The notes under the pieces were generated by a model that was given only the letters and a program-made list of their open reading frames with translations, did no database searches and was not told where the DNA came from. From the NCBI RefSeq assembly GCF_003627755.1, contig NZ_CP032695.1, positions 620,001-684,000 on the forward strand: a DNA stretch of 64,000 nt. Reading direction: 5' to 3'. The position numbers and the translations under genes were made by a program. Shown here piece by piece: positions 11,905-48,251 of the stretch. Source of the stretch: Rhizobium jaguaris. Lineage in GTDB: Bacteria > Pseudomonadota > Alphaproteobacteria > Rhizobiales > Rhizobiaceae. Position 1 is the stretch's first letter. Every line of letters starts with the position of its first letter.

Positions 11905-11943
11905 GATCTGGTCTCCTGAGCGCAAACTACAGCACGAAACATT

Positions 11944-11957
11944 TGACCAAAAGGTCA
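11944..11957. promoter_or_regulatory. inverted repeat TGACC-AAAA-GGTCA
   Basis: A 5-bp-arm perfect inverted repeat lies in the 73-bp gap between the broken DJ-1 gene and the divergent AraC-family regulator, 20 bp before the regulator's ATG. The position suits an autoregulatory operator. Confidence 0.4.
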
Positions 11958-11977
11958 TAGTTCCCTATCTTTCAGCC

Positions 11978-25583: not shown

Positions 25584-25933
25584 AGCCCTTCCCCCACGAA
25601 AAGCTGCACAACAATACCACCTGCGCGAAGCCTCGTCATCCTTGCAACCTTCGAAATATAACTGAGAAAATCGGCAACGATCACAGTTGCCCGAAGGTAC
25701 AATATCGCTCCATGCCGCCCTTCGGTAAGTTCTAGGCGACGAGCGCCCTTGCAATGAGCAACGGCTGCTCGCGGTTGAACGTCGTTCTCAGCGAAGGCGT
25801 TCGGAATTTGAAATCGCTTCAGAAGTTTCGATTGGATTCAGATTGAACACGCGACCGGCGGCGCTCGACGCATTTTGTCGTAGTGCGCCACGATGAATCG
25901 TCCGGCCGGAAATCGCAACGGGAGGAAGTTAAG
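25584..25933. other. divergent intergenic region, kinase / sulfatase
   Basis: A 350-bp stretch between divergent genes with no gene and no copy of the 17-bp element found upstream of the second sulfatase. It must carry both promoters; nothing more specific was recognised. Confidence 0.4.
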
Positions 25934-30712: not shown

Positions 30713-32689
30713 TCAGCCCTCCGATGCGGCGGCCTTCGCCTGCTCCGCCTTGATCGCGGTGGCGGTGGCTGAGGCGGCGGCAGCGGCGGCGGCCTTCTCC
30801 TCGCCGCCGACCTGAACGGTTGGCGTCGCGAATTCGATTCCGTTCGCCATGAAGACGTCGCGGATCATGGTGTAGGCGCGGCGGCGGATTACGGACTGAT
30901 GTCCAGGAGCGGTGGTGAATGCGAAGCTTATTTCCATCCCGAAATCGCCGATCTGTTCGACCCCCTTCATCTTCACCGTCTCGATGATGAAGGGTGCGAG
31001 TTCTTCATCGGCCAGCAATTCGGCGCCGACGCCTTTCACCAGCCTCTTCACTTTGGCGACGTCGGTGTTAAAGGGCACGCGGAGCATGAACTTGTCGATG
31101 ACCCAGTCTCTGCTCATATTCTGGACCGCGCCGAGGGAGCCGAAAGGCACAGTGAAGATCGGACCGCGATGGTGGCGTAATCTGACTGAGCGGAGGCTAA
31201 AGGACTCGACAGTGCCCTTGTAGCTGCCGCTTTGTATGTATTCGCCGACCCGGAAAGCATCGTCCAACATGTAGAAGATGCCACTTATGACGTCCTTGAC
31301 GAGCGTCTGTGATCCGAAACCCAGGGCCACGCCGAACACGCCGGCTCCAGCAATCAGCGGACCGATCTGAACGCCCAATTGGGCAAGGACCGTGAGTACT
31401 GCCGCCGCCAGTACGAAAACCGCAAGCGCATTTTTGAAGATCGGCAGGAGAGTAGCAATGCGGTGCTCGCTCGCGGCCTCACCGCCATGAGCGGAGGGAT
31501 CGGCGGAAAATGTCTGGAGCTTATCGTCTATGAAGGCCCTGGTGATATGCCAAATGAGATCGGCGACCAGAAGAATGACGACGCTCTTTAAAAGGCCGTA
31601 GACGATGGCAGCTATCGTGGGGTCCTGATGTGCAACTGAGCTGGGATTGAACTGCCAGACAACCGCCAGCCACCCCACCGCTAACGCGACAACAACTGCG
31701 CGGCTGCCGCGGACCAGGAAAATGCTCCGGACGCGGTTCTGGCGGGAGCCGTCTTCGGAGGAAATCGCTCCTTCGATCGATCGCCCGACGGCCTTCAAGA
31801 TACCGGGCAAAGTGAGCGCATAGAGTCCAATCCAAAACAGGCCCTTGAGATTAAGACACCAAAGCACCCAGATACCGACGAGACAGAGGCTCAGGGCGCC
31901 TTTGATGACGCGGGATTTCGTGGAAGTCCGCCAAACGGCTTCCACTCCGATCAGCAGGAGCACTACGGAAAAGCAATAGGAGATCGCCATCGAGACGGTA
32001 GGATCGACACCTAGCGGCTCGCCAAGGCTTCTGATGGCCAGGGCGAATACGAGAATGCCCAAGAAGAGACGTGCGCGTCGGAGCAGTCGATCGCTCTCGA
32101 CGCCGAACGCTGCAAGCACGGATAGAAAGCGATAGGCCACGAAGGCGATTAGGAATGTGAGCAGCGCGATGCGTGCCAGCGGCGGCCAATCGAAGGCAAA
32201 GAAGATCACAGCGATGACAAAAGCAAAGACAACCACGGGAAGCAGCTTGGCTCCGGCGGCGGCGATGGCGCCGGGCGCTTTGGCGAACCGAACCGCACGG
32301 ATCCGCAGGAATAGCTGCTCCGCTGCGGCGCCGACGGCGACCAGAACCGCGAAGATGGCCATAACCGGAGCGTAACCGTGGGATATAGCGTCGGACCTCG
32401 TTCGCGCGGACGCGGCCGCAATCTCGGAGGGTATGCGGGGGAGCGCAGATATGACGGTATGAATGCGGTCGCGGGTCTGGTTGTCCCAATTTTCCAGATC
32501 CGATTTGGCCGCTGCGGACGGGGGCATTGTTTCGCTCTTCGGCTTTTGGCTTTCCAGCCATGCCCTAACATCCGGGTCCTGCAGAAGGCGCACCAGATCA
32601 TCGATCTTCGGTTGAGCGGAGGGTGTGGTCTGTGCATGCGCCGCTATCGAGAAAAGTAAAACGAAAAGGACCGTTGCCACCCATCTCAT
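30713..32689 (-). CDS. MscS-family mechanosensitive channel
   Basis: The 658-residue protein has a signal peptide (VLFVLLFSIAAHAQ), a periplasmic coiled segment, about nine or ten TM helices and a C-terminal MscS core. The pore helix is AGVFGVALGFGSQTLVKDV, followed by the beta domain (GEYIQSGSYKGTVESFSLRS) and an Ala/Lys-rich tail. It is larger than E. coli MscS and closer in layout to MscM/YbdG-like proteins. It releases solutes when membrane tension rises. ATG 32689 follows AAGGGGACG. A copy of the island's 17-bp element lies 61 bp upstream. Confidence 0.93.
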   Translation of the reverse strand: MRWVATVLFVLLFSIAAHAQTTPSAQPKIDDLVRLLQDPDVRAWLESQKPKSETMPPSAAAKSDLENWDNQTRDRIHTVISALPRIPSEIAAASARTRSDAISHGYAPVMAIFAVLVAVGAAAEQLFLRIRAVRFAKAPGAIAAAGAKLLPVVVFAFVIAVIFFAFDWPPLARIALLTFLIAFVAYRFLSVLAAFGVESDRLLRRARLFLGILVFALAIRSLGEPLGVDPTVSMAISYCFSVVLLLIGVEAVWRTSTKSRVIKGALSLCLVGIWVLWCLNLKGLFWIGLYALTLPGILKAVGRSIEGAISSEDGSRQNRVRSIFLVRGSRAVVVALAVGWLAVVWQFNPSSVAHQDPTIAAIVYGLLKSVVILLVADLIWHITRAFIDDKLQTFSADPSAHGGEAASEHRIATLLPIFKNALAVFVLAAAVLTVLAQLGVQIGPLIAGAGVFGVALGFGSQTLVKDVISGIFYMLDDAFRVGEYIQSGSYKGTVESFSLRSVRLRHHRGPIFTVPFGSLGAVQNMSRDWVIDKFMLRVPFNTDVAKVKRLVKGVGAELLADEELAPFIIETVKMKGVEQIGDFGMEISFAFTTAPGHQSVIRRRAYTMIRDVFMANGIEFATPTVQVGGEEKAAAAAAASATATAIKAEQAKAAASEG

Positions 32690-32750
32690 GTTTCGTCCCC
32701 TTCTCTGCCGCTTCCGACGGAAACGAGATCACGAATTCTTCCGTTACGCC

Positions 32751-32768
32751 AGTACGCTACGGTAAATT
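32751..32768 (-). promoter_or_regulatory. 17-bp island element, copy 1 (mscS side)
   Basis: Plus strand AGTACGCTACGGTAAATT; toward mscS it reads TTTACCGTAGCGTACT. It is 61 bp before the start codon. It is the most divergent of the six copies. Confidence 0.6.
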
Positions 32769-32807
32769 CGGGCGTAACATTCAGCCGATCGAGGACGATC
32801 ATGGGCG

Positions 32808-32824
32808 TTTACTGTAACGTACTT
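32808..32824 (+). promoter_or_regulatory. 17-bp island element, copy 2 (32887 gene side)
   Basis: TTTACTGTAACGTACTT reads toward the gene at 32887, 62 bp before its ATG. It is inverted relative to copy 1, so each divergent gene has its own correctly oriented copy. Confidence 0.65.
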
Positions 32825-32886
32825 ACGGAAATCGCGAGACCGCATAGGATGTCTTCCTTGAACTCGAATGGAGGGCAGAACGGTCT

Positions 32887-33180
32887 ATGGGCACGGGTAG
32901 CACGAACCCGCAGGAAGGGGCCGCCCGGCGGGGACTTTGGAGGCTGATGCTAAAGCTGCCGGCGATGCGTGGCCGCCTTCAGATTCTTGGCGCCAAATCT
33001 TCCGCGCTTCAGGATCTGTTTGAAGCCTACGAGGACGCAAGCGTGACACTGGAGCGCCTGCTCAAGGAGAAAGGCGGCAACGCCCGTCCGATGATCCTCG
33101 AATATGAGACGATCTGCAGGGAGGTCGAAAACGAAGTCATCGAATATTGTCTCGAACATAGCCCGGACGTACCAAAATAA
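32887..33180 (+). CDS. conserved-looking small protein of unknown function
   Basis: A 97-residue, probably cytoplasmic, helical protein with a basic N-terminus (LWRLMLKLPAMRGRL) and an acidic C-terminal half (YETICREVENEVIEYCLE). No family recognised. GGAGGG lies 12 bases upstream of ATG 32887. It is supported by codon-consistent composition and by its own copy of the 17-bp island element, opposite the MscS gene. Confidence 0.65.
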   Translation: MGTGSTNPQEGAARRGLWRLMLKLPAMRGRLQILGAKSSALQDLFEAYEDASVTLERLLKEKGGNARPMILEYETICREVENEVIEYCLEHSPDVPK

Positions 33181-33303
33181 GGCGGAGAGGCGACCGAAAA
33201 AGATCACGTTTCGGTTTTGTTGGCATCTTGTCTTGCAACCGCTCGTCATCTGAGCAATATATTCATTTGTTCTGATGGACTTGGACCAAGCGTAGCGGGG
33301 GCT

Positions 33304-35058
33304 ATGATGCGCGCTGAGGAACATGGTACGAGGGACTGCGAGGTCAAGGAAACCGAGGCGCGCGCTGAAGTCGAGCGGCTTCTTTCTGACACCAGATTCC
33401 ACGCAACGGAGCGCCAGTGCGCCATACTGCGCTACCTCGCCGAGCGGCATTTCGATGGACATGACGATGGCGTCAAGGCCTACTCGATCGCGATAGACGT
33501 GCTTGGCAGATCAAGCAGCTTCGAGCCCTCTCTCGACCCCATCGTGCGGATAGAAGTCAGTCGCCTGCGGTCTGCGGTCGCGAACTATTATGAAGCTTTC
33601 CGACAGCCGGGTTGGGTTTCGATCGACCTGCCAAAGGGGAAGTACGTCGTCGTGTTCTCGAAGGCGGCGGCGGATGAGCCTGCGGAGAGCGGGGCGGCCG
33701 TGGGACACGGCGGGCAGGAAGCAGAGAGAGCATATTCTGTGACGCCGACAGAAACGGCAACGCCGGCGGTGGGCCCCGCCGCACGATCGAAAAAATGGAT
33801 TATCCCGTTGTCATCCGCGGCAATGCTTTGCGTGGCGTTGTCGGCCGCGACTGCCGTGTGGCTCTACACCCGTCCCGTGTTTACCACGAAGCCAGCGGTC
33901 TCGGTCATCATCTCGGCGGCCGATCAGCGGTTAGAGGGGGAGGCGACCCTGACACGCGACATGCTGATCACGGCGCTGACCCAGTTCCAGACTCTGACGG
34001 TGACATCGGAGGACGGCGCCACCGGATCGGTAACACCCGCGTCGCGTGATCAACCAGGGCGGTCGTACCGCATAGACATGAAGTATTACGGTGAAGATGG
34101 CGACCGAAGCGTGTGGTGGCAGATCGTCGACTCGGGATCCGGAGACCTTCTGAAGGCCGGGCTCGAGAAGGTCGAAGGAGATGGGAAGAGCCCGCAGGCG
34201 GTAAGCGGCGAGCTAATCGCGGCATTGTCGCGGCGGTTCGCCACGACCCGCGGCGTGATCAACAGCATCGAGATCCACCAGAATGCGATCGGAGCGCTTG
34301 GAAATGCCTGCATCTTGAGAGCGGAATACGAACTCGACGACGGCAGCCCCTCGGACATCGCAGGAACCTCCGGCTGTCTCGAACAAATGGTGGCAGCGCA
34401 GCCGTCCAATGCCGATGCCGCCGCAACGCTGTCGCGCGTGCTCGTCGCGAAGGAGGGGAGCGTTGTTCCGGAAGAGACCGTAGCTCGCGCGCTCACACTC
34501 GCCGATCGCGCCGTGTCGCTTGCACCGCTCTCGGACCGCGCGCAGATCGCGGTCATGATGGCGCAGTTCCACGCGGGACGCATCCAGACTGCGATAAGCG
34601 CCGGAAACCATGCGTTGGCTCTCAATCCCAACAATCCCGACGCCGCAGCCAAGCTCGGGATGATCCTCTTCGCGGCCGGTTACTGGCAGGCGGCCGCCGC
34701 GATGGCGGAAGGGTCTGCAAAGTCGGTGGATGTCGTTCCGCACGATGCCCTGCTCGTGCTTGCATTGGATGCCTATCGAAGAGGTAATTGGTCGGAAGCC
34801 TCGCTGCTTGCCGAGCAGGTAAACTGCAGCGATTTCGTTGTCAGAGCGCTTCGGGCCGCGTCGCTCGGCCAGCTGGGATCGGATGCGGCGGCACAACGGC
34901 TGGCGCAGCTCCGCAGCCAGAATCCAGATTTCGAAACGCGCTTTCGCAGCCTGATCGCAGGCAGGCGCTACCAGCAGGCATTGGTTGCCTCCATGGAGGA
35001 GGGGTTACGGAAGGCTGGCGCTCACCTGAGCTCCGAAGGCTTGGCGAGCGCATTCTGA
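33304..35058 (+). CDS. membrane regulator with N-terminal winged-helix-like domain and TPR region
   Basis: The 584-residue protein has an N-terminal ~110 residues (VERLLSDTRF ... ILRYLAERHFDG, then PSLDPIVRIEVSRLRSAVANYY and LPKGKYVVVF) like the winged-helix domain seen in rhizobial membrane TPR and adenylate-cyclase-like proteins. One TM helix follows (AAMLCVALSAATAVWLY). The C-terminal half has a domain resembling the beta-rich part of that family, then TPR-like helices (ALALNPNNPDAAAKLGMILF). This suggests one-component signalling across the membrane. ATG 33304 is used; ATG 33307 follows it directly. The ligand is unknown. Confidence 0.75.
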   Translation: MMRAEEHGTRDCEVKETEARAEVERLLSDTRFHATERQCAILRYLAERHFDGHDDGVKAYSIAIDVLGRSSSFEPSLDPIVRIEVSRLRSAVANYYEAFRQPGWVSIDLPKGKYVVVFSKAAADEPAESGAAVGHGGQEAERAYSVTPTETATPAVGPAARSKKWIIPLSSAAMLCVALSAATAVWLYTRPVFTTKPAVSVIISAADQRLEGEATLTRDMLITALTQFQTLTVTSEDGATGSVTPASRDQPGRSYRIDMKYYGEDGDRSVWWQIVDSGSGDLLKAGLEKVEGDGKSPQAVSGELIAALSRRFATTRGVINSIEIHQNAIGALGNACILRAEYELDDGSPSDIAGTSGCLEQMVAAQPSNADAAATLSRVLVAKEGSVVPEETVARALTLADRAVSLAPLSDRAQIAVMMAQFHAGRIQTAISAGNHALALNPNNPDAAAKLGMILFAAGYWQAAAAMAEGSAKSVDVVPHDALLVLALDAYRRGNWSEASLLAEQVNCSDFVVRALRAASLGQLGSDAAAQRLAQLRSQNPDFETRFRSLIAGRRYQQALVASMEEGLRKAGAHLSSEGLASAF

Positions 35059-35081
35059 AACGTCAACGCCGACCCTGCGGG

Positions 35082-36095
35082 TTACTCCCACCCGAAGATC
35101 TTTCGCCAGTCAGCCTTCATATCGACGACCAGCCAGTTCCGCCGTTCGGCTTCGTCCAAGGCCTTGTCCAGTTTGCCGAATGACGATTGCCGGTCGTAGG
35201 CATATTCGCGCTCGGCATCGGTATGATGGATCAGCATGGCGAAGCCGGGTCCCTTGGCCGCGGTCACCCAGCGCAGCATTTCGTAGTCGCCGTCCGAATT
35301 GCCGGCCACGAAAATCGGCTTTCTGCCAATAAACTGGTTGATGCCGACTGGTTTTCCTGGGCCGTCGTCCACGAAATCGATCTTCGGCAGCCGCCTGAGA
35401 ACTGGAACGTCGTCAACCAGGGCGTATTCCGTGGTGATCGTGCTGCCCACGACCTGTTCCGGTGGAATGCCATAGATCTTTTCCGTTATCGGACGCATGA
35501 ACTCTACGCCGCCGCCGGAGACGATGTAGGTCTTGAAGCCGTTAGCGCGCAGATAGTCGAGAAGCTCTCGCATCGGCACGTAGGTCATCTCCGTGTAGAG
35601 CTTCCCCGTCTTCGGATGCTTCGCGGTCGCAAACCAATCAGTGACGATCTTGGAAAATTGGTCGGTGGTCATGCCGGCATGCGTTGCCATGCCCAACTCG
35701 ACAATACCTTTCTCGCCACTCTTGGCGACGCCCTTCAGGTCTCCGGCAAGGACGGATTTGAATGGTGCCTGCTCTTTCCACTCCGGGTGGTCCGGAGCCA
35801 ATGTCTTGACCCGGTCGAACACAAAGCCGAGCTGGGTGTAGAACGGCTGCTCCACCCAGAGCGTACCGTCATTGTCGAAGACGGCGATGCGGTCCTCGGG
35901 GGCAACATAGCCTTCTCCGCCCTGCGTCGTGGTTGCTTTGACGAAGTCCATGATCCGGGTTTTCGCGGCCGTATCGTTCCAAGACGGCAGCGCTTCCTGT
36001 GCTAGCCCCGGAGATAATGCGCCTGCGATCAGCATGACCAGTGCGACGAGCAGCGATGCAAAGATCGCGTCGGAAGCCTTCAAGCGGTTTCTCAT
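35082..36095 (-). CDS. exported HAD-family phosphatase
   Basis: The 337-residue haloacid-dehalogenase-superfamily protein has a signal peptide (LLVALVMLIAGALSPGLAQ). Motif I is AVFDNDGTLW, motif II YIVSGGG, and motif III/IV is NSDGDYEML with upstream basic residues; all catalytic acids are present. Probable phosphomonoesterase in the periplasm; the substrate is unknown. ATG 36095 follows GAGGAG. Only 13 bp separate it from the upstream FGE gene on the same strand, so they form one operon. An internally deleted relative lies after the first sulfatase. Confidence 0.88.
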   Translation of the reverse strand: MRNRLKASDAIFASLLVALVMLIAGALSPGLAQEALPSWNDTAAKTRIMDFVKATTTQGGEGYVAPEDRIAVFDNDGTLWVEQPFYTQLGFVFDRVKTLAPDHPEWKEQAPFKSVLAGDLKGVAKSGEKGIVELGMATHAGMTTDQFSKIVTDWFATAKHPKTGKLYTEMTYVPMRELLDYLRANGFKTYIVSGGGVEFMRPITEKIYGIPPEQVVGSTITTEYALVDDVPVLRRLPKIDFVDDGPGKPVGINQFIGRKPIFVAGNSDGDYEMLRWVTAAKGPGFAMLIHHTDAEREYAYDRQSSFGKLDKALDEAERRNWLVVDMKADWRKIFGWE

Positions 36096-36108
36096 CGGAA
36101 CTCTCCTC

Positions 36109-37068
36109 TTAAGCGAGAACTCTTTTCACGCATCGGAAGCCGACATGGCTCGTCGAGGTATCCTCAGGCTCGGCATGGCGGGCGGCAGGTCGGTACCGGC
36201 GGCAGTAATTCGGCGCGCAGAGGTGCGACCCACCCTTCAGCACGCGGCGCGGTATCCGTATTTGCGGTTGCCTGGGATCGTAGCTCTGTTCGATATCGCC
36301 GCCGCGCGGATTTCTCGGGATGCAGCAGGATTTGGCGGCTGGCTCCGGATGCCGTGTCGACCAGTAATCTGACGTCCACTCCCAGACATTGCCGATCATG
36401 TCGTAAAGGCCGTGGCCGTTCGGCGGAAAAGATCGGACAGGCGAAGTGCGTTCGCGGCCTTTCGGCTTGGTGGAGTGCGTTGGGAAGGTGCCAGCCCAGG
36501 TGTTGGCCATGGCGACGCCACCCGGCATCAGCTCATCGCCCCACGCATATTCGGTATCATCCGATCCACCGCGAGCGGCCAGCTCCCATTCGGCCTCTGT
36601 GGGCAGATCGAGCCCAGCCCATTCCGCGTAGGTTTTTGCGTCGGTATAAGCGATATGGACGACGGGATGATCAAGCTTACCTCGAAGATCGCTCAACCCT
36701 CCGAGCGGCCGCCGCCAGTTTGCTCCGAACTTGAACGTCCACCATTGACCAATATCGGTACCGCTGATGGTCTTCGGCATGGTGAAGACGAGGGATCCAG
36801 CCTTCAGCATCTCCGGCAGTGCGCCCGGATAGTCTTTAGGATCGGGAGTTTTCTCGGCGAACGTGACGTATCCCGTGGCCTTCACGAACTCCATGAACTT
36901 CCGGTTGGTGACAGGCGTGTCGTCGATCCAGAAGCCATCGACCGCGACGGAATGGACGGGAGCCTCTTCCGGATAGTGGTCGTTCGAGCCCATGGCGAAG
37001 GTGCGGCCGGGAATCCAGACCATGCCTTCCGGTGCCTTCGCAGGTTCCCTTTCGAATGGCAATGCCAT
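36109..37068 (-). CDS. formylglycine-generating enzyme (sulfatase modifying factor) homologue
   Basis: The 319-residue protein has the FGE-sulfatase domain: VWIPGRTFAMGSNDHYPEEA, DDTPVTNRKFMEF, LPTEAEWELAARGG and NVWEWTSDYW. The C-terminus has RVLKGGSHLCAPNYCRRYRP, placing Cys284 and Cys289 at the two copper-binding cysteines of true FGE (GGSxxC-x4-C), which most FGE-like proteins without this activity lack. It should convert the sulfatase Cys to formylglycine. No signal peptide is evident. ATG 37068 follows CGGAGG. A 17-bp island element lies 53 bp upstream. Confidence 0.92.
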   Translation of the reverse strand: MALPFEREPAKAPEGMVWIPGRTFAMGSNDHYPEEAPVHSVAVDGFWIDDTPVTNRKFMEFVKATGYVTFAEKTPDPKDYPGALPEMLKAGSLVFTMPKTISGTDIGQWWTFKFGANWRRPLGGLSDLRGKLDHPVVHIAYTDAKTYAEWAGLDLPTEAEWELAARGGSDDTEYAWGDELMPGGVAMANTWAGTFPTHSTKPKGRERTSPVRSFPPNGHGLYDMIGNVWEWTSDYWSTRHPEPAAKSCCIPRNPRGGDIEQSYDPRQPQIRIPRRVLKGGSHLCAPNYCRRYRPAARHAEPEDTSTSHVGFRCVKRVLA

Positions 37069-37121
37069 TACAGCCTCCGAATATCGAAGGCCGTAGTTTC
37101 GCGCCTGGCGGGTGGAAGGGG

Positions 37122-37140
37122 AAGTACGTTACTGTAAATT
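37122..37140 (-). promoter_or_regulatory. 17-bp island element, copy 3 (FGE promoter)
   Basis: Toward the FGE gene it reads AATTTACAGTAACGTACTT, ending 53 bp before the ATG. A GTCAAC-N11-GTTGAC inverted repeat (37146-37168) lies just upstream. TTGACG 18 bp before TACTTC could be a -35/-10 pair overlapping the element. Confidence 0.65.
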
Positions 37141-37209
37141 CCGGCGTCAACGACGTAACGATGTTGACAAGGTTTTCCTGGCAGCCGCCCTTCCATCCGC
37201 CCATTGGGG

Positions 37210-38499
37210 TCAAACTGGATTGATATCCGGCAGGATAGGCTTTGTCCTGGACTTGGTGGATGAACCGCGTATTCCGACAAGGCGGGCAAGACGTTTTCTG
37301 TCGATCTCGACTTCGGCCTTTCCTCGAAACAGCCCTTCCGCAAGGAGGGAAACCTCGCGGGAGAGTTCGGGCGAGTTCTCCGACGAGAGCCAGTCCGCTA
37401 GTGTCCGATGCCCGAGCTTTGCGGACCATGCCTGCAGTCCGGCATAGATCACCATGGGATTGCCCGTCCGGATCGTCTGACGCAACTGTCCAAGCTGGTG
37501 CCGAGCGGAGAGCCGTCGCCTCTGGTCGATCTCAGAAATCCGGTCCGTAAGCCGGAGGGCCACTCGACGTGCAGGCCGAAAGAATATGACAAGCAGCACA
37601 AAGACGGCGACGCATGCGATCATGAGCCAGAGTGGATTTCCCAGCAGCCTGGACTGGTCGTCCTGAAGGTCGGGCGTAGTTACCTGACGCGTCGCGGCTG
37701 CCGCAGCGACTACGACTTTCACCGCAGGTAGCGTTGCCGACCTCCAAGTGTGATCGCTGACATCGAACCAGGGATAGGAGAGGGAGGGGATGTCGAAAAT
37801 CCCCGTGGTCTGCGCGGTATAAACCACGATCTGGATGCGCCGGCTGCCTGTCTCACGATCGGCTTTAATGCCGTCTTCGACCTTCGGCGGCTTTTCATAT
37901 TGCCGCAGATTGGGCGCCGTTCCGACGTCGACAGGCGGGATCATGATCGCCTGTGTATCCTCGGCGAAGACAGTAATGGTTCGGACAAGTGCATCACCCG
38001 CCTTGAGCGTCAACGGGTCCCGGTCGAAAGACTGCATCAGCGTCAACGCGCGCGCGGCAAAGCCCGGCGCCGCAGCCGCTCCATCAGCCGTTGCGGCGAC
38101 CTGGAAGCTCGTGGAAGGCGCATATACTGTCGCCTTCACCGGCCTTCCGTCCTGCGAGTAGCCGAGTTCGATCTCGATCTCCGGCAGGGTGAAGGTTCCG
38201 GCGGTCTCCGGCACGACGGCATAGCGCCGGCTGATCCCGGAATACTGCACGCCATCCACCGTCCGCAGAAGGTTCTGTGCTCGTTCTTCCGGCAACGTCA
38301 CGAGGGCATTCGGGACATTGAAAAGCGGAAATTGCGGTGGCGACGTGAAGAAGTTGGGCACGAAGACGTCAATGGCAATGTGCACCTGCTGGCCGGGGAC
38401 GATCTGTCCGCCACCCTCGACTGCGACCTGCGCGAACGGCTCGGTTGCGACAGCGATGCCGGATGTCGCCAGCCAGAAGAGTACCACCAGCAACCTCAT
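37210..38499 (-). CDS. batD: BatD-like protein
   Basis: The 429-residue protein has a signal peptide (LLVVLFWLATSGIAVA), a beta-rich periplasmic body (about 22-300; VHIAIDVFVPNFF, GTFTLPEIEIELGY), a TM helix (LWLMIACVAVFVLLVIFF) and a cytoplasmic helical tail. This order matches BatD/oxygen-tolerance proteins of MoxR-Bat operons. ATG 38499 (AGAGGAAG upstream) overlaps the preceding VWA gene's stop by ATGA, so it is coupled. It is the last gene of the long operon. Confidence 0.85.
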   Translation of the reverse strand: MRLLVVLFWLATSGIAVATEPFAQVAVEGGGQIVPGQQVHIAIDVFVPNFFTSPPQFPLFNVPNALVTLPEERAQNLLRTVDGVQYSGISRRYAVVPETAGTFTLPEIEIELGYSQDGRPVKATVYAPSTSFQVAATADGAAAAPGFAARALTLMQSFDRDPLTLKAGDALVRTITVFAEDTQAIMIPPVDVGTAPNLRQYEKPPKVEDGIKADRETGSRRIQIVVYTAQTTGIFDIPSLSYPWFDVSDHTWRSATLPAVKVVVAAAAATRQVTTPDLQDDQSRLLGNPLWLMIACVAVFVLLVIFFRPARRVALRLTDRISEIDQRRRLSARHQLGQLRQTIRTGNPMVIYAGLQAWSAKLGHRTLADWLSSENSPELSREVSLLAEGLFRGKAEVEIDRKRLARLVGIRGSSTKSRTKPILPDINPV

Positions 38500-40049
38500 G
38501 GCTTCCTCTTCTGTATTTCGAGCGAGAACTTTCGCGCCATAAGATCGGCCGGGCTCACCTGGAGATTCTTCATCCACATCTCCGACGTCTGCTCTGCGAT
38601 ATCGATCTGTCCTTCCTTGCCTTTTTTGCCCTTATCATCGAACTGCACGCTGTCCGGCTTTTCGTTCGGGTCCTGCTGCTCCTCTTGCTCCTTGTCCTTC
38701 TGTGCCTCCAGAAGCCGCTCGGCGATCACAAGGTTTGCCTGTGCGTCGGGCCAGTCCTTCCGCTTATCGAGCGCTTTGCCGAATGCGGCGACCGCCTCCT
38801 CGAACCTCGACAGATGGAGAAAGGCGTTCCCTTGATCGTACCAGCTCTCGGCCGTGTCGACGGAGGCGAAGGCGTCGACTGCGTCCGCGAACTTTCCTGC
38901 CCGGTAGAAAGAGACTCCTCTCCACATCAGATCGGAAAAATGCGATGCCGCACCCGCGAAGTCGCCGCGTTCGAATGCCAGGCGGCCCTGTTGATCCGGC
39001 GTCAGCCACATATCCGTGAATTCGGCTGCCCCCGCGTCGCCAGGTGAAAGCAGTCTCAGGGCAAGAAGGAAGACTCCGGTCCGCACCACCCAGCCCCGCC
39101 TAAAACTCAGCGCGAGAGCGACCACCACCGGCACGACGAGCCACCAGCCCATGTCGCGCCACCGATCGCCTTCGGTCGCCTTCTTCTCGGCGAAGTTCGA
39201 TCGGATCCGCTGTGAGACCCAGCGGATATCGGTGTCGTCGGCCGTCGCTGTCGCTACGTCGGCTCCGGTCAACCTATGCAAGTTCTGCAGGCCATCGACA
39301 TCGAGTTTGGCCAGGACTCGGTTTCCACCCTCGCTGAGGAATCCTTTGTCCGGCGTCTTCACCGGCCCACCCTCAGCCGTGCCGACGCCGAGCACGACGA
39401 TGCCGCTTCCAGTGTTTTGCTTGAAGGCTTCGAATGCAGTCTGTTCGACACCGTCGGTGATGAAGAGGATGGTTCCGGTCGCGCTTTCCTGCGCGAGCAT
39501 ATCCTCGGCAAGCTTCAGGGCCTTTGCCGTGTCCTTCCCGGAGACCGGCATGATGCGGGTGGCGAGCGCGTCGATGTAGGTCTCAATGAGGGACGCGTCC
39601 TCGGTCAGCGGCAGGACGAGATGGGCCGATCCGGCATAGGCGATGATGCCCGTGCGCGCACCATTTCTGGAGGCGATGACATCATGGATCTTCAGCTTTG
39701 CCCGTTCGAGCCGCGAGGGCGTGACGTCGATGGCATCCATCGTGGGGGAAAGGTCTACAGCGATGATCAGCGGAGCTGTATCTTCGACGAACGGAGGTCG
39801 CTCCCGCTCCCAGGCCGGACCCGCCGCCGCCAATATACCTACAGTGAGGATACCGGCCAGTACCCATGACGGTCGGATACTCGGTCCTTCGGTGACATCG
39901 ACGACCAGCCGGTCGAGCAGGTGCGGGGCAATTATTACCTTCCACTGATTTCGGACGTCGCCGGATCGGGACGACAACCACAGCACCGCGACCGGAAGGA
40001 CAAGGCTAACCAACAGCCAGGGCCGCATGAAGTGGAAGTCCGCGCTCAT
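38496..40049 (-). CDS. batB: BatB/BatC-like VWA-TPR membrane protein
   Basis: The 517-residue protein has two N-terminal TM helices, a von Willebrand A domain with a MIDAS-like DLSPT (99-103; Thr rather than the usual Ser at the third position) and GTILFITDG. A further TM follows, then a C-terminal TPR region (YDQGNAFLHLSRFEEAVAAF) and a charged KDKEQEEQQDPNEKP tail. It fuses what are BatB and BatC in other species. ATG 40049 (AGGAGG upstream) overlaps the batA stop by ATGA. The moonlit role is interaction with MoxR-type chaperone complexes at the membrane, by family inference. Confidence 0.87.
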   Translation of the reverse strand: MSADFHFMRPWLLVSLVLPVAVLWLSSRSGDVRNQWKVIIAPHLLDRLVVDVTEGPSIRPSWVLAGILTVGILAAAGPAWERERPPFVEDTAPLIIAVDLSPTMDAIDVTPSRLERAKLKIHDVIASRNGARTGIIAYAGSAHLVLPLTEDASLIETYIDALATRIMPVSGKDTAKALKLAEDMLAQESATGTILFITDGVEQTAFEAFKQNTGSGIVVLGVGTAEGGPVKTPDKGFLSEGGNRVLAKLDVDGLQNLHRLTGADVATATADDTDIRWVSQRIRSNFAEKKATEGDRWRDMGWWLVVPVVVALALSFRRGWVVRTGVFLLALRLLSPGDAGAAEFTDMWLTPDQQGRLAFERGDFAGAASHFSDLMWRGVSFYRAGKFADAVDAFASVDTAESWYDQGNAFLHLSRFEEAVAAFGKALDKRKDWPDAQANLVIAERLLEAQKDKEQEEQQDPNEKPDSVQFDDKGKKGKEGQIDIAEQTSEMWMKNLQVSPADLMARKFSLEIQKRKP

Positions 40050-41035
40050 GCTGCAATCCTCCTGCGCATGACCCCCGCGAAGCCGGATAGGATGTAGTAG
40101 GTAGAGAGCAAGCCGATGCCGGTAGCCAGTGGCCAATGGAACAATTCGATACGCGGCCGCCATGAGAGGTTCTTCTGGCTCTCGGGCGTAATCCGGTCGA
40201 GGACATTGTAGATTGCCGCGAGGTCCGACTGGTCGGCTCCGAAGAAGTAGCGCCCGCCGGTGTCATGCGCGATCTGCTGGAGTGTCGTCGTATCGAGCTT
40301 GTCTTCTCCGGTTGCTTCGGGATCGCCGATGCCGACCGCATGGATCACGATGCCTTTCAACCTTGCGATATCAGCCGCCTTGACCGGTGGCATTCTGCTG
40401 GCGGTGTCGTTGCCGTCGGTGAGCACGACCAGCACCTTTTCCGGAACCGTCGTCTTTTCGAACATCCTGATCGCAAGCCCGATCGCGTCGCCCAACGACG
40501 TCCGCGGCCCCGCGATTCCCGGCAGGGTATCGGCAATCATTGTCCGGACGAGCTCGTGGTCCATCGTGAACGGCGCGAGCGGGTAGGCCGCGTCGCCGAA
40601 GGCGATCAGGCCGATGCGGTCTCCCGATCGTCTGGCGACGAAATCGGCGACAACCGTGCGGACCGCATCCACGCGCGCCTCGATCGTTCCGTCTGGCGCA
40701 TGAAAATCCTTGGTGTCCATCGACTGCGACAGATCGAGTGCAAGCAGTATGTCCCGCTGCGGTTCGATCTTCTCGATCGGAGGTTCCACGAACTGGGGCC
40801 GGGCCAGCGCGAGAACGATCAGACACCAGGCAACGCTCTCGCAGATGAACTGCGGCCGCGTCCGCCGCATGACGATGGATCCTTCCGTCGGACGTACGCC
40901 GGCCGCTTTGGCGACCTGTTCGAAAAAGGGCAGGCGCACGGATGCCGACGTCTGGCGGTGCGGAGGCAGCAGCCACCGGACAAGCAGTGGCACCGGAAGA
41001 AGGAATAGCAGCCATGGAAGGTCAAGCTGATACAT
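40046..41035 (-). CDS. batA: BatA-like VWA membrane protein
   Basis: The 329-residue protein has an N-terminal pair of TM helices (LPWLLFLLPVPLLVRWLLPP and SVAWCLIVLALARP), a VWA domain with an intact MIDAS DLSQS (101-105) and VLVVLTDGND, and a C-terminal TM helix. It fits BatA. ATG 41035 lies 14 bp inside the 3' end of the DUF4381 gene, so translation is coupled. The partner is the VWA-TPR protein encoded immediately downstream. Confidence 0.88.
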   Translation of the reverse strand: MYQLDLPWLLFLLPVPLLVRWLLPPHRQTSASVRLPFFEQVAKAAGVRPTEGSIVMRRTRPQFICESVAWCLIVLALARPQFVEPPIEKIEPQRDILLALDLSQSMDTKDFHAPDGTIEARVDAVRTVVADFVARRSGDRIGLIAFGDAAYPLAPFTMDHELVRTMIADTLPGIAGPRTSLGDAIGLAIRMFEKTTVPEKVLVVLTDGNDTASRMPPVKAADIARLKGIVIHAVGIGDPEATGEDKLDTTTLQQIAHDTGGRYFFGADQSDLAAIYNVLDRITPESQKNLSWRPRIELFHWPLATGIGLLSTYYILSGFAGVMRRRIAA

Positions 41036-41546
41036 GATGACGCTCGATCCATCTGCGAGCGGCCGCGGCGATGTCGTCGCCATCGTTCTGCGGCAATCCG
41101 TCGATGTTCGCATCGTTGCGGTATTCGACGTCGTCGAGCAGCAGCGCGAGCATATGCCCGGCACCGCCCTCGGCGTGACCGTCGAGGAATCGGACCCATG
41201 CTTGCCCGGACAGAGAGGCGACCTCGTCGCGGGGCCATGCCGCCAGCGCGGTCCTTTTCAGAAGACCGGCAAGTTCATGGATAGCGTCCTGACGAGTTTC
41301 GGGATTGCGAATCCTGATTTCGATCCCGTCAAGGATACGCCGCGCCTTCCTCCGGTAGGCATTGGCGCGGTAATGCCGAAGCCAAAGCAGGAACGCGAGC
41401 GTCAGCCCCGCAAGAAAGATCAGCCCAAGGACCATCCAGCCCCAGGTCTGGGGCATCCAGGAGACAGGCGTCGGCATGGAGATGTCGTGCAGCGAGCGCA
41501 ACGCCGCTTCTGTCATCGGATCCGGCTGTGACGTTTGCTGTTCCAT
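41022..41546 (-). CDS. DUF4381 membrane protein of MoxR-Bat operon
   Basis: The 174-residue protein has one TM helix near residue 40 (WGWMVLGLIFLAGLTLAFLL) and a cytoplasmic part with AYRRKARRILDGIE and LAAWPRDEVASLSGQAWVRF, the DUF4381 signature. Such proteins sit between DUF58 and BatA genes in Bat operons; the role is undefined. ATG 41546 is five bases after GGAGG and shares an ATG with the stop region of DUF58; ATG 41549 is an alternative. Confidence 0.85.
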   Translation of the reverse strand: MEQQTSQPDPMTEAALRSLHDISMPTPVSWMPQTWGWMVLGLIFLAGLTLAFLLWLRHYRANAYRRKARRILDGIEIRIRNPETRQDAIHELAGLLKRTALAAWPRDEVASLSGQAWVRFLDGHAEGGAGHMLALLLDDVEYRNDANIDGLPQNDGDDIAAAARRWIERHHVSA

Positions 41547-42492
41547 CATCGCCTCCGCTGCCGCCAGGCGGATTGTTCGAGCAGGCGCCGCAGCTGAGGA
41601 GCGGTCTCCTCCGCCGCCGACACCGGAAGCATGGGAAGGCCGAGTTTGCGCTGCCAGGCCCGAAGCTCGCGTCCACGATTGCGCGCGAACCTGTCGATGG
41701 CGCGGCGGACGTCCGACTGCCGCAAGGCAAGTTCTGCCTGCAGGCGGCCGCCGCTGACGACGATGTCGCCGGACTTCGGCAATTCGAGCAGGAAGGGATC
41801 GTAGACAAGCAGGCAGATTACGTCGTTATGGGTTGAGAGCTTGAGCAACAGGTCGCGTGTCCGCGCCGTGTGGCCGTCGAAGTCGGAAATGACGACGACC
41901 AGATGGTCGTGATGGGCAATATTCGCCACCGTGCCGAGAACCACATCGAACTGTTCCGGTGCAGGGGGGGTGGCCGAGGTTACGCTCAGCTTACGGTTCT
42001 GCTTCGCCAATCTGTCGGCAAAGGCGATGACGGCGTTGCGGCTGCGGTGCGGCTTGACCTCGTCGATGTCGGTATCGTTGAAGACGAAGCCGCCGACGCG
42101 GTCGCCCGAGCCGAGGATGCGCCATGCGCAGAGCATCGCAGCCTCCGCGGCAGTGACGGATTTCATCGCCAGCCTGCTGCCGAAGAACATGTTGATCCTC
42201 TGGTCGACGACGAGGATCGCGGGACGCTCCTTCTCCTCGTCGTAGACGCGAACCACCGGCCTGTTCGTGCGGGCCGTCACGCGCCAGTCGATCGAGCGGA
42301 TGTCGTCGCCCGGTAGATAGTTTCGAAGTTCCTCGAAGGTCAGGCCGCGGCCACGCATCGAGGATTGCATGCGCCCGGCAAGCTGCTGGTGGCTGCGTGC
42401 CTTCTGAACGAATGCCAGGTCGCGCGCACGCCCTTCGAGTGTCACCAGACCTTCGGTGGTCACGTAGATGCCGTCCATGTTCGCGGACGTCT

Positions 42493-42496
<4 letters not shown>
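41546..42496 (-). CDS. DUF58 domain protein
   Basis: The 316-residue protein shows the DUF58 hallmark ELRNYLPGDDIRSIDWRVTA, then a VWA-like fold (PAILVVDQRINMFFGS; HLVVVISDFDGH). It is probably cytoplasmic or membrane-associated. It always accompanies MoxR ATPases. Its ATG overlaps the moxR stop (ATGA). Its role is taken to be an adaptor between the MoxR ATPase and the Bat proteins, by family inference. Confidence 0.9.
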
Positions 42497-43470
<974 letters not shown>

Positions 43471-43497
43471 GGCGGATCCAGTCGTTGCTACCGATGG

Positions 43498-43525
43498 GAA
43501 TGGCGCGGTCGGGACCGCGCCATTC
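43498..43525 (-). terminator. hairpin between sulfatase and moxR
   Basis: A perfect 13-bp stem (GAATGGCGCGGTC / GACCGCGCCATTC) has a two-base centre and no T-run. In this position it could attenuate, or act as an RNA-processing or stability element separating sulfatase from chaperone levels. Confidence 0.55.
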
Positions 43526-43537
43526 GGTTCGTTTGGA

Positions 43538-45175
43538 TTATTGAGCACTGGGGTTCTGCTGGAGGGACGACATCAGCGCTTCGATCATTTGATCGATGCT
43601 GAAGCTGGCCGGGCGCTGGCTCGGCGGATAGTCCCGGAATGTCTGCAGGAACGGTGCCACTCTCCAGATGCCGTATTGGACGAGATAGGCGTTCTTCACC
43701 AGCCAGTCATAATATTGGTCGGAAACTACGTCCGCGCGTTCATAAGGATCCATGCGAAGATTGAACACCTTCGGCACTCTAAGGCAGGTGAATGGATTGG
43801 CCCACACTTGCAGGCCGCCCGGAGCGCGCTGCTCGCAGAAGACAATCTTCCAATTGTCGTAGCGGTAGGACACCAGTTGTCCGTCATCGTTGAAATAATA
43901 GAAATCATGCCGCCCTGACTTCGGTTCCTGCCCGGTCAGATAAGGTAGCTGATTGTAGCCATCGAGATGGACTTTGAACTGGCTGCCGCCGATGGATGTT
44001 CCCTTGAGGAGGCGATCCTTGATGTCGGTGTCGCCGGCCGCAGCCAGCAGCGTCGGAAACCAATCAAGGCCCGACATCATATCGTTGGAAACTTGACCCG
44101 CCTTGATGTGTCCCGGCCAGCGTATCAATGCAGGCACGCGGAAGGCGCCTTCCCAGTTGGTGTCCTTCTCGCTACGGAAGGGTGTCGTCGCCGCGTCCGG
44201 CCATGAAAACTGGTTCGGTCCGTTGTCCGTCGTGTACAGCACGATCGTGTTGTCGGCGACGTTCAGATCATCGAGGATTTTCAGAAGTTTACCGACGTCA
44301 TTGTCATGCTCGATCATCGCGTCGGCATAGTCGTTGCCGGGCATCCCGCTCTGGCCCCTGTATTCGGGGCGGACGTGGGTGACGAAGTGCATATGGGTCG
44401 TGTTCATCCAGGTAAAGAAGGGCTTGCCCTGCTTCACCTGCCGCTGCATGAAATCTATCGCTGCCGCGGTCGTCTCGTCGTCGACCGTCTCCATGCGTTT
44501 TGCCGTCAGTGCGCCGGTGTCCTCGACACGGCCGTCGGCGAAGGAGTGAATGACGCCGCGGGGAGAGTTCGACTTGACGAAATCCTGATCATCCTTGGGA
44601 TAATATGGTCTTTCAGGCTCCTCTTCGGCGTTCAGGTGATAAAGGTTGCCGAAGAATTCGTCGAAGCCATGGTTCGTCGGCAAGAATTCGTTGCGGTCGC
44701 CGAGGTGGTTCTTGCCGAACTGGCCGGTTGCGTAGCCGAGCGGCTTCAGTGCCTGTGCGATGGTGATGTCGCGGGGTTGGATTCCTACCGTGGCGCCGGG
44801 GATCCCAACCTTGCAAAGGCCGGTGCGCAGGCAGACCTGGCCAGTAATGAAGGTCGAACGCCCTGCCGTGCAACTGTTTTCGGCGTAGTAGTCGGTGAAC
44901 ATCATGCCTTCCTTGGCGAGGCGGTCGATGTTCGGTGTTCGGTAGCCCATGACGCCGAAGGAATAGGCGCTGAGATTCGTCTGGCCGATATCGTCACCGA
45001 AGATGACAAGAATGTTCGGTCTCGAGCCGGCATCGCTTGACGGTTGCGCTGGCGCAGCAGCAGCCGGTGCCGTCTCCTGCGCTTGAACATAAGAGGCGGC
45101 GAGGGATACTGAGCCAAGCGTCATCGCGAAAGCTGCGGTGGCGCCGAGAAGGCGTCGCGAGAAGGCCGTGCGCAT
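43538..45175 (-). CDS. exported arylsulfatase, C-T-A-G-R maturation motif (second copy)
   Basis: The 545-residue protein has a leader (RRLLGATAAFAMTLGSVSLA, cleavage near VQAQE) and an Ala/Pro linker. The metal pair is Asp61-Asp62 (FGDDIGQ), and SCTAGRSTFITGQ puts the formylglycine Cys at 102. LYTTDNGPNQFSW carries metal ligands. The body is related to the sulfatase at 25934-27622 but clearly diverged. GGGGAGG precedes ATG 45175. It heads the moxR-bat operon and has its own copy of the 17-bp element 131 bp upstream. The substrate is unknown. Confidence 0.93.
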   Translation of the reverse strand: MRTAFSRRLLGATAAFAMTLGSVSLAASYVQAQETAPAAAAPAQPSSDAGSRPNILVIFGDDIGQTNLSAYSFGVMGYRTPNIDRLAKEGMMFTDYYAENSCTAGRSTFITGQVCLRTGLCKVGIPGATVGIQPRDITIAQALKPLGYATGQFGKNHLGDRNEFLPTNHGFDEFFGNLYHLNAEEEPERPYYPKDDQDFVKSNSPRGVIHSFADGRVEDTGALTAKRMETVDDETTAAAIDFMQRQVKQGKPFFTWMNTTHMHFVTHVRPEYRGQSGMPGNDYADAMIEHDNDVGKLLKILDDLNVADNTIVLYTTDNGPNQFSWPDAATTPFRSEKDTNWEGAFRVPALIRWPGHIKAGQVSNDMMSGLDWFPTLLAAAGDTDIKDRLLKGTSIGGSQFKVHLDGYNQLPYLTGQEPKSGRHDFYYFNDDGQLVSYRYDNWKIVFCEQRAPGGLQVWANPFTCLRVPKVFNLRMDPYERADVVSDQYYDWLVKNAYLVQYGIWRVAPFLQTFRDYPPSQRPASFSIDQMIEALMSSLQQNPSAQ

Positions 45176-45306
45176 CACATCCTCCCCGCCCAATTATGGT
45201 CGTTCAACATTTCGCTCTCCTTGTGATCGGGCAGGGCCTGGCCGCCGCCGAAACTGGATCGTTGTCATTCGACCAGGAGAGACTTCTACTTTTGGCGTTT
45301 GCGCGG

Positions 45307-45323
45307 AAGTACGTTACTGTAAA
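45307..45323 (-). promoter_or_regulatory. 17-bp island element, copy 4 (sulfatase-moxR-bat operon)
   Basis: Toward the sulfatase it reads TTTACAGTAACGTACTT, the exact consensus. It lies 131 bp before the start, further than the other copies, which implies a longer leader. Confidence 0.65.
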
Positions 45324-45362
45324 CGTGGGGTTGCGAGATGTATCAGGGACGTAAATCCGCGG

Positions 45363-46595
45363 TCAGGGTGTCAGGGGTTTCGACTCGGGACTTGACCGTA
45401 GCGTCTCATCCACATCTGCAGCAGTTTGTGGACGTGACGGCTGTTCTTTCGGACGTGAGGGCTGTTCGGTGATCATCAGCGGTGCCGCGACGGCCGTGCC
45501 GGCGACGGTGCCTACCGTCTTCACGGTGCCGCCGACAACGGCGGCGACACCTTCTCCGAGCGAGACCTGGGAATCGGTCAGCGGCTGACCCGTCATAATC
45601 CGCTGGCCGATGAGCTGAACGATCTGAGGGCTTTCGGCGAACTTGCCGTGGTTCGCGCTGTCGCCGGTCTTGACCTTGGTGAGGTCGATGGCGGTGATGC
45701 CCGCCTTCTCCAGGCGGGAGCGGTAAGGCTCTTCGGCCGGATTGATCCCGCCCAGGCGTCCAACGTTGCCCGCGATGAATCTGGACGCCGCAAGCGCGCG
45801 GTCGTCCTGTGAAACGAAGAGCGTGAACTTCGGCCTCGGCTCTCCCATCTCAACGAATTGCTTGGCGAAGACTTCGATATCGAGGTCCGGTGAGGCGAGG
45901 ATGACATTGTGAATCTTCGGATCCACGTGCCCGTCGCGGATGCCCATTTGCCGAAGCGATTCCATCGCGAGCCAGGTGCCCATCGAATGCGCGAGGATCG
46001 TGATGTCCTTGACCTCGGGATCTTGGGCCAGGACTCTCAGCACTTGTTCAAGGGCCGTGCGGGAATAATTTGCGCTTTCCTTGTCGTACACGTAGGCGGC
46101 GACCCGGGCGCGCGACGGCCAGGTAAAGAGGATCGGCGTCGCGTGCATGTCGCTGTCATGGACGATCTGGGCGAAGCGGAAGACCGAATCCTCGTAGGTG
46201 TTGTTGTAACCATGGATGAAGACGATCGCGTGGCCGCCTTCAGTGTGCTGGTGGAACCACGCGCGGCCCTCGGGAACCGTGTAGAGCTCTTTGACATGGG
46301 TGACGGCGAAGTCGGTGGCGGGATTGGGAGGAAGCTTCTTCGGCCACTGCACCGATCCGACCGGGCGCTTCGGCGGAATGGAGACCGCGATATCTGTCAG
46401 AGAGGGCTTGGGGCTGCGCTCACCGTTGAACAGCGTTGCAGGATTGCCGGAGGGCTGGCGGGTCGTCGCCACGAGCATGTCGACTTGTGCGGTTTTGGGC
46501 GTGGTCGCCGTCAGCGTCACGGGCGTCATCACACCAGTTGGATGCCCGCAGCCGGATAGCAGCAGCAGAATTGCAAGCACAAACTTCTTCCGCAT
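45363..46595 (-). CDS. DUF900 alpha/beta hydrolase lipoprotein
   Basis: The 410-residue protein has a lipobox (LLLLSGCG, Cys16), so it is likely membrane-anchored in the periplasm. The DUF900 hydrolase core shows IVFIHGYNNTYEDSVFRFAQ and the nucleophile elbow ILAHSMGTW, with DxD and a late His in NHGKF. The C-terminal tail is Gly/Val-rich, then Pro/Arg/Glu-rich and disordered-looking. ATG 46595 is preceded by GAGCGCCG. It may act on a lipid or ester; the substrate is unknown. It is divergent from the DUF1254 pair. Confidence 0.88.
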   Translation of the reverse strand: MRKKFVLAILLLLSGCGHPTGVMTPVTLTATTPKTAQVDMLVATTRQPSGNPATLFNGERSPKPSLTDIAVSIPPKRPVGSVQWPKKLPPNPATDFAVTHVKELYTVPEGRAWFHQHTEGGHAIVFIHGYNNTYEDSVFRFAQIVHDSDMHATPILFTWPSRARVAAYVYDKESANYSRTALEQVLRVLAQDPEVKDITILAHSMGTWLAMESLRQMGIRDGHVDPKIHNVILASPDLDIEVFAKQFVEMGEPRPKFTLFVSQDDRALAASRFIAGNVGRLGGINPAEEPYRSRLEKAGITAIDLTKVKTGDSANHGKFAESPQIVQLIGQRIMTGQPLTDSQVSLGEGVAAVVGGTVKTVGTVAGTAVAAPLMITEQPSRPKEQPSRPQTAADVDETLRSSPESKPLTP

Positions 46596-46647
46596 CGGCG
46601 CTCCGTCGGTCGTTCGGATTCACCATAAGCGGCACGGGCGTTTGGTT

Positions 46648-46666
46648 AAGTACTTTACGGTAAATT
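46648..46666 (-). promoter_or_regulatory. 17-bp island element, copy 5 (DUF900 hydrolase)
   Basis: Toward the hydrolase it reads AATTTACCGTAAAGTACTT, 52 bp before the ATG. It contains the palindrome TTTACGGTAAA on the plus strand. Confidence 0.62.
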
Positions 46667-46766
46667 ACAGCGATGAAGCGCGCGGTATCGCCTTGAAATC
46701 ACCGCTGCCGATGCCAGTGAGGCGTGTCCGTCAGACATGCCGCAACTCAAAGCATTTACGCTCGCA

Positions 46767-46783
46767 TTTACAGTAACGTACTT
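46767..46783 (+). promoter_or_regulatory. 17-bp island element, copy 6 (DUF1254 operon)
   Basis: TTTACAGTAACGTACTT, the exact consensus, 61 bp before ATG 46845. GCATTTAC occurs just upstream (46753-46760) as a half-copy. Confidence 0.65.
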
Positions 46784-46844: not shown

Positions 46845-48248
46845 ATGAGAAGAATGCTTTTGGCGACAATGGCAGTGATGGCGATGGCATCGGCTGCTGC
46901 CGCCTTCTCGCCTGAGGAGCTGGCGAAACGCACGATCGAGCGCCGTGCTGTGGAGGCGGTCGTCTGGGGTATTCCGGCAGTCAATTACGACCTCATGCTC
47001 CAGGAGATGGTCACCAAAACGAGCGGTGAGGTGAACCAGATTGTCTATTGGTCGCGCCCTCTTGATTGGCACAATCAGACCCTGACACCCAATCCGGACG
47101 CCATCTATCTGATGGTCTTCACCGACACAAAGGACGTCGGGCCGGTCGTCATCGAGGTGCCTCCGGCCGAGGGAGGGTCGATCAACGGCAATATCGTCGA
47201 CGTCTGGCAGATGCCGCTTGAGGACGCCGGACCATCTGGCGCCGACCACGGCAAGGGCGGAAAGTACTTGGTCCTGCCGCCCGGCTACAAGGACAAGGTT
47301 CCCGACGGCTACATCCCGCTCGCTTCGGACACCTATGGCGGCTACGCGCTTCTGCGCTCCAATCTCGCTAGCCATAGCGACGCCGATATCGAAAAGTCTG
47401 TCGCCTACGGCAAGAGATTGAAAGTCTATCCACTGTCGCAGGCTGCCTCGCCGCCGGAGACCATATTCACCGACGCCAAAGACGTCTTGTTCGACTCCAC
47501 GATCAAGTATGACACCAGCTTCTTCCAATCTCTGGACCGGATCGTTCAGACCGAACCCTGGCTGCCGCGCGATCGGGCCATGATCGATCAGCTCAGGTCG
47601 CTGGGCATCGAGAAAGGCAAGCCCTTCGAGCCGGACGCGACGACAAGCAAGGAGCTTGAAACCGGAATCCACGAGGCGCGCGAATGGCTGGAGGCGAAAT
47701 ACGATACCAGTTTCAAGCCCTTTTTTGAGAGTGGCCACTGGAACTTCCCCGTTGACCCCGAACTTGTGAAGGCGGCGCAGGCGTCATTCGACAAGCCGGA
47801 TGCCTATCCTGTCGATATTCGCGGTCTCACCTACAGTTATGCCTATATCGGCATTAAACGCCTTGGAGCGGGCCAGTTCTATCTGATCGCAATCAAAGAC
47901 AAAAACGGCCATCCGTTTGACGGCTCGAAGACCTATCGCCTGAACGTGCCGGCCAACGTCCCGGTGGAGCAATATTGGTCGCTGACCGCCTATGATCGCG
48001 AAACGCATGCGCTGATCCTTAACATGCCCCACGCCAGCCGCTCGTCGCAAATCGCCGATCTGCAGAAAAACGCCGACGGCTCGGTCGACATCTTCATCGG
48101 ACCGAAGGCGCCCAAGGGCAGGGAGACGAACTGGATACCGACCGATGCGAAGCGCGACTTCGAGCTGATGTTCCGTCTCTACGCACCGACGAAGGCGCTC
48201 TTCGACAAGACATGGGTGCTCACGGATGTCGAGCTGGTGAGGAAATAA
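46845..48248 (+). CDS. exported DUF1254/DUF1214 protein
   Basis: The 467-residue protein has a leader (LLATMAVMAMASAAAAF), a DUF1254 N-terminal part (AVEAVVWGIPAVNYDLMLQE, WHNQTLTPNPDAIYLMVFTD) and a DUF1214 C-terminal part (VPANVPVEQYWSLTAYDRET, KNADGSVDIFIGPKAP). It is periplasmic, of unknown biochemical role. ATG 46845 follows AGGAGG. Tandem with a second, diverged DUF1254 gene three bases downstream; the two form one transcript driven by the element at 46767. Confidence 0.9.
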   Translation: MRRMLLATMAVMAMASAAAAFSPEELAKRTIERRAVEAVVWGIPAVNYDLMLQEMVTKTSGEVNQIVYWSRPLDWHNQTLTPNPDAIYLMVFTDTKDVGPVVIEVPPAEGGSINGNIVDVWQMPLEDAGPSGADHGKGGKYLVLPPGYKDKVPDGYIPLASDTYGGYALLRSNLASHSDADIEKSVAYGKRLKVYPLSQAASPPETIFTDAKDVLFDSTIKYDTSFFQSLDRIVQTEPWLPRDRAMIDQLRSLGIEKGKPFEPDATTSKELETGIHEAREWLEAKYDTSFKPFFESGHWNFPVDPELVKAAQASFDKPDAYPVDIRGLTYSYAYIGIKRLGAGQFYLIAIKDKNGHPFDGSKTYRLNVPANVPVEQYWSLTAYDRETHALILNMPHASRSSQIADLQKNADGSVDIFIGPKAPKGRETNWIPTDAKRDFELMFRLYAPTKALFDKTWVLTDVELVRK

Positions 48249-48251
48249 CCA

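Follow-up and report, generated by a model that had tools for sequence, protein, structure and literature searches.

The described systems closest to the locus considered here are the membrane-anchored regulators of the CadC/ToxR type, the response regulators of the PhoB/OmpR type and, among rhizobial regulons, the FeuP regulon of Sinorhizobium. Sites of fixed orientation that overlap the -35 are typical of PhoB/OmpR-type activators. The definition of the CadC/ToxR-like family is taken here from an excerpt of PMC5430869, and for FeuP a candidate motif, TTCA-N7-TTCA, is given in an excerpt of PMC3616915. The locus itself lies in a 64,000-nucleotide stretch of the Rhizobium jaguaris contig NZ_CP032695.1 (the window, in which positions are numbered from 1 unless a contig is named), where copies of a 17-bp element, TTTACNGTAACGTACTT, precede sulfatase, FGE, MoxR/Bat and other envelope-related genes. 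Judged from sequence and from a structure model, this element is probably bound by a CadC/ToxR-like membrane-anchored regulator encoded at 33307..35058, which would activate its own operon together with a sulfatase and envelope regulon. The proposed regulator is so far unstudied.

In its predicted layout the proposed regulator resembles CadC and ToxR: a putative winged helix of the OmpR/PhoB type at the N-terminus is followed by a single membrane helix and by a C-terminus that may sense. No receiver domain was found in it (no Response_reg match at E<=5). Unlike CadC, its predicted model begins with helices and has no N-terminal beta-sheet of the kind described for CadC in the excerpt of PMC5430869. 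It further differs from CadC and ToxR in that its DNA-binding domain has no Pfam match and no PDB sequence match, in that a gene for a small helical protein usually adjoins the regulator gene, and in its many dispersed putative targets. The PhoB/OmpR response regulators include the nearest fold neighbours of the predicted N-terminal domain, and the element carries TAC repeats spaced 10 bp apart; these regulators, unlike the protein described here, have an N-terminal receiver domain. With the FeuP regulon the locus shares a short promoter motif that defines a rhizobial regulon, and FeuP was rejected as a candidate since the consensus of 78 sites differs from the TTCA-N7-TTCA of the PMC3616915 excerpt.

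On balance, we favour the view that the protein belongs to a hitherto undescribed branch of one-component regulators that are anchored in the membrane and have a diverged winged-helix domain. This would be the first operator and regulon of that branch, with sulfatase maturation, MoxR/Bat and envelope genes switched on together and with changes in the operator matched by changes in the regulator; each of the five paralogues in the genome would then have its own operator code. Literature titles matching 11-14-base pieces of the element did not concern rhizobial regulation, and among titles and abstract starts on the targets and the architecture none described this regulon.

Promoter elements conserved in rhizobia

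The six repeats of the window are real promoter elements of a gene set conserved in rhizobia. Scanning the whole 64 kb gave six matches to TTTACNGTAACGTACTT at no more than three mismatches; dinucleotide shuffles averaged 0.04 matches and never had more than 1. No mismatch is found in the copies at 32808..32824 (plus strand; upstream of a small gene and the regulator gene, with a predicted -10 TAGGAT at +38), 37122..37138 (minus strand; upstream of an FGE-like gene), 45307..45323 (minus strand; upstream of sulfatase-moxR-DUF58-DUF4381-batA-batB-batD) and 46767..46783 (plus strand; upstream of a DUF1254/DUF1214 pair). The copy at 46648..46664 (minus strand; upstream of a DUF900 gene, with a predicted -10 TATGGT at +38) has one mismatch, and that at 32750..32766 (minus strand; TTTACCGTAGCGTACTG; upstream of an mscS-type channel gene) has two and is conserved as TTTACCGTTGCGTACTC in 3/3 relatives. 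An earlier note on this DNA had described six copies, each pointing toward the start of its downstream gene, three of them identical and three deviating at 1-3 positions, and this description was borne out, the identical copies being those at 37122, 45307 and 46767; its distances to the start (61, 62, 53, 131, 52 and 61 bp) hold within one base, and the first copy, which it placed at 32751, starts at 32750.

A scan of the genome (8.03 Mb) at no more than two mismatches gave 10 pattern matches, compared with 2 for a reversed control. With the broadened consensus KTWACNGTWRCGTACTT at no more than one mismatch, the whole genome holds eight sites, that is, the six of the window and two others, C1:3744951, which precedes a ProX-like binding-protein gene, and C2:1317007, which precedes an outer-membrane-barrel gene (both gene names are our reading from sequence resemblance). 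Both of these are target families in other rhizobia too. At no more than two mismatches, the broadened pattern gave 15 matches in this genome, fewer than the 33 of the control; therefore, C1:727709 is probably a chance match, and it is the target family and not the match that supports C2:497845 (two mismatches), which precedes a gene of a Cys-rich family also targeted elsewhere.

The exact 17-mer was found in at least 119 stretches of a genome contig collection; among the matches listed, 81 stretches are from Rhizobiales, carrying 98 sites, and 38 are not, and the motif was built without the non-rhizobial matches. The 17-mer also occurs in a conserved cyanobacterial context (Microcoleus/Tychonema, e.g., L029, L062 and L085), where the flanks look unrelated. 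Sites with near-identical flanks were thinned out, which left 78 of the 95 rhizobial sites with enough flank for the consensus and 77 of 92 for the counts of TTTAC and of the -10. The extended element reads TTTAC-N7-[AG]TTTACNGTAACGTACTTCC, and TTTAC (at least four of its five letters) stands at -11 in 28/77 sites, compared with 0-6 at each of the other offsets from -40 to -5. A sigma70-like -10 (NA...T) follows the element in 37 of the 77 sites, at +38 or +39 (background 7.6, standard deviation 2.8). Five of the six window sites carry a hexamer of this kind, and only the mscS site has no clear -10 at these positions. The -35 would be expected at about 16-21, which lies under the element, an overlap that is expected of an activator site.

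Comparison of promoters with three close relatives (18 comparisons, with gaps scored as differences) gave 95.4% identity in the element over 306 compared bases, 92.9% at 38-44, 83.3% in the spacer at 18-38 and 72.2% at -60..-13. The element of the sulfatase promoter has decayed to TTTACAGCAGCATCCCT in one relative (L167) and is intact in the other two. The idea that the constant orientation reflects promoter polarity or an activator-type site fits both the geometry and the conservation; the proposal that TACTT serves as the -10 does not, as the -10-like signal stands 20-21 bp further downstream.

Target families were defined by 20 seed proteins. A downstream open reading frame (ORF) of at least 25 amino acids follows 95 of the 98 sites, and 71 of these 95 match a seed and 24 match none. 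The matches are to DUF1254 (13, in two groups), a second-type sulfatase (12), the small protein (10), FGE (9), the sulfatase (7), the outer-membrane barrel (5), ProX (4), DNFARAES (4), MoxR (2), MscS (2), the Cys-rich family (2) and DUF900 (1). In the reverse direction, 13/95 match a seed, at divergent gene pairs. The second-type sulfatase and DNFARAES seeds were themselves drawn from genes downstream of foreign sites, and with these two dropped there are 55 forward versus 12 reverse matches. Further similar proteins, outside the 71, stand directly after the site in L047, L065, L080 and L089 and in L014 and L108. The putative regulon of the earlier note is supported by the target families across rhizobia, the promoter geometry and the conservation in relatives.

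The candidate regulator and its alternatives

The earlier note recognized no regulator gene beside the sites, which proved wrong: two genes downstream of the 32808 site, at 33307..35058 (plus strand), a membrane protein with a predicted winged helix is encoded, and its distribution over genomes follows that of the element. The protein has 583 amino acids (with its start set from homologues) and is laid out as a predicted winged-helix N-terminus (about 1-125), a membrane helix (about 165-185) and a C-terminal TPR region; the stretch after the helix, of about 390 residues, has a weak TPR match. Its nearest named relatives are in Rhizobium mayense and R. calliandrae. In 30 of 31 aligned regulators, a hydropathy peak starts between residues 137 and 167 of the alignment; L151 has none above threshold, and the L141 and L016 regulators show a further borderline peak. 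Five more proteins with the same N-terminal domain are encoded in the genome, at C2:604238, C2:396893, C1:1841298, C1:2595377 and C1:2740195.

In the mechanism proposed here, weak promoters of the sigma70 type would be activated when the winged-helix domain binds the extended site TTTAC-N7-TTTACnGTAACGTACTTcc that overlaps their -35. Targets would be, presumably, its own operon and the sulfatase, FGE, MoxR/Bat, DUF1254, MscS and other envelope genes, and the TPR region beyond the membrane helix may sense a signal. Computed support comes from the sites and their geometry, from the set of targets and from co-occurrence and co-variation with the regulator; we infer binding, membrane topology and the signal, as well as activation rather than repression, the last from geometry only.

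Of 199 genomes that represent the family, nine have the regulator and four the exact element, and all four carry both (Fisher 2e-6). Among 148 genomes of the genus, 50 have both, six the element only, eight the regulator only and 84 neither. A close regulator orthologue is present in 49 of the 148, and 48 of these 49 have the exact element, compared with 2 of 18 genomes that have FGE and no regulator. Six of the eight regulator-only genomes were inspected (G515 and G622 were left out), and all six contain a similar cluster. The element itself is changed in these six: L149-L152 have GTWACNGTWACAWTCT upstream of the small gene and, from inspection by eye, sites resembling GTAACAGTTACAAGCTT upstream of the sulfatase, L153 has GTTACSGTWACGTACTT-like sites and L154 has TTTACCGTTRCGTACTT. 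Variants in other genera are GTTACTGTTACGTACTT (L141 and L142), GTAACYGTAACGTACTK (L139) and GTTACAGTTACGTACTT (L135), and similar clusters with changed elements surround most of the distant regulators inspected. In a regulator tree made by a quick method, in which several branches are long, L141-L142, L149-L152 and L155-L156-L157-L159 each fall together, and element types differ between these groups.

None of the other regulators found in the window recurs in the 21 clusters compared as the proposed regulator does, which is in 21/21 by construction, as the loci were picked for holding it. Homologues of a LysR protein (19827-20765) are in 3/21 clusters, of a histidine kinase (23706-25754) in 1/21, and of an AraC/DJ-1 protein (11843-12910) and a stand-alone receiver (22605-22997) in 0/21 each. 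The window has 52 ORFs of at least 100 amino acids, from which the domain scan left out ORF 4275-9761. A strict regular expression for OmpR-type response regulators gave no match in 1.6 Mb of DNA.

Several observations weigh against the proposed regulator. The modelled fold link to the OmpR/PhoB type is modest, no recognised site was found in L137 and L140, and the element of L154 differs from that of its tree neighbour L089. Six genomes of the genus have exact sites without a detected regulator (one of them, G572, has regulator-like remnants), and short regulator-like stretches at L144:9056-9162, beside kept sites, and at L143:10595-10717 represent partial-regulator cases. Moreover, co-occurrence by itself does not single out the regulator among all genes of the cluster; the case for it is made by the predicted fold, by the co-variation and by the control with FGE genomes.

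The element could instead be bound by a regulator encoded elsewhere, such as one of the five same-domain proteins, with the TPR protein merely a co-regulated target. The presence of those proteins, the six genomes that retain sites and the position of the regulator gene itself downstream of a site would all suit such an arrangement, but we consider it unlikely in view of the contrast between close-regulator genomes and the FGE control and of element variants that shift together with the adjacent regulator. We give far less weight to the small 97-amino-acid protein (32887..33180, plus strand) as the DNA binder with the TPR protein as its partner or sensor, even though its gene directly follows the site at 32808 and a homologue is present in 20/21 clusters compared.

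An alternative, extracytoplasmic function (ECF) sigma factor that uses the element as its core promoter is just as improbable. Constant orientation and a similar distance to the start codon would be expected in that case, but the element is followed 20-21 bp downstream by a sigma70-like -10 (no search for sigma factors was made), and with 17 conserved bp and a half-site further upstream it is longer than a -35 usually is. The TetR-type regulator suggested by the earlier note has the lowest probability of all: TTACnGTAA is palindromic and GTAACGGTTAC in L141 and L142 keeps a palindrome, but other variants, GTAACTGTAAC and TTTACCGTTGC among them, have lost it, and of the 56 TetR_N matches of the genome (from a search that scored 150 of 266 first-look candidates) none lies inside the window or less than 20 kb from the remaining genome-scan sites.

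Under the CadC/ToxR-like reading, a protein group that databases label 'TPR protein' or 'adenylate cyclase' gains an operator, a candidate regulator and a defined set of targets. The reading also brings the sulfatase, FGE, MoxR/Bat and DUF1254 genes together in one programme, which makes their role testable, and the variants of operator and regulator form a natural series for a recognition code.

Genes of the window cluster

The putative targets in the window begin with the MscS-type mechanosensitive channel (30713..32689, minus strand; Pfam MS_channel_2nd 8.6e-15). The small protein matched no Pfam family at E<=0.001 and no NCBIfam family at E<=0.1; its AlphaFold 2 model (predicted local distance difference test, pLDDT, 87.7) has four helices, and fold comparison gave no informative match. 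A HAD-family hydrolase (35082..36095, minus strand; Pfam HAD 9.5e-11) is a further member of the cluster. It is followed by the putative targets FGE/SUMF1-like enzyme (36109..37068, minus strand; Pfam FGE-sulfatase 2e-80), sulfatase-moxR-DUF58-DUF4381-batA-batB-batD operon (37210..45193, minus strand), the sulfatase of which has the C-x-A-x-R motif (CTAGR), DUF900 alpha/beta hydrolase (45363..46595, minus strand; Pfam DUF900 1e-93) and DUF1254/DUF1214 gene pair (46845..49739, plus strand). An Rfam scan of 30-50 kb gave no RNA element match. A second sulfatase gene at 25883-27619 has no element in front of it. Genes for a TraG/TraD-like coupling protein and TraD are located at 58846-61091, and the replicon has conjugation genes.
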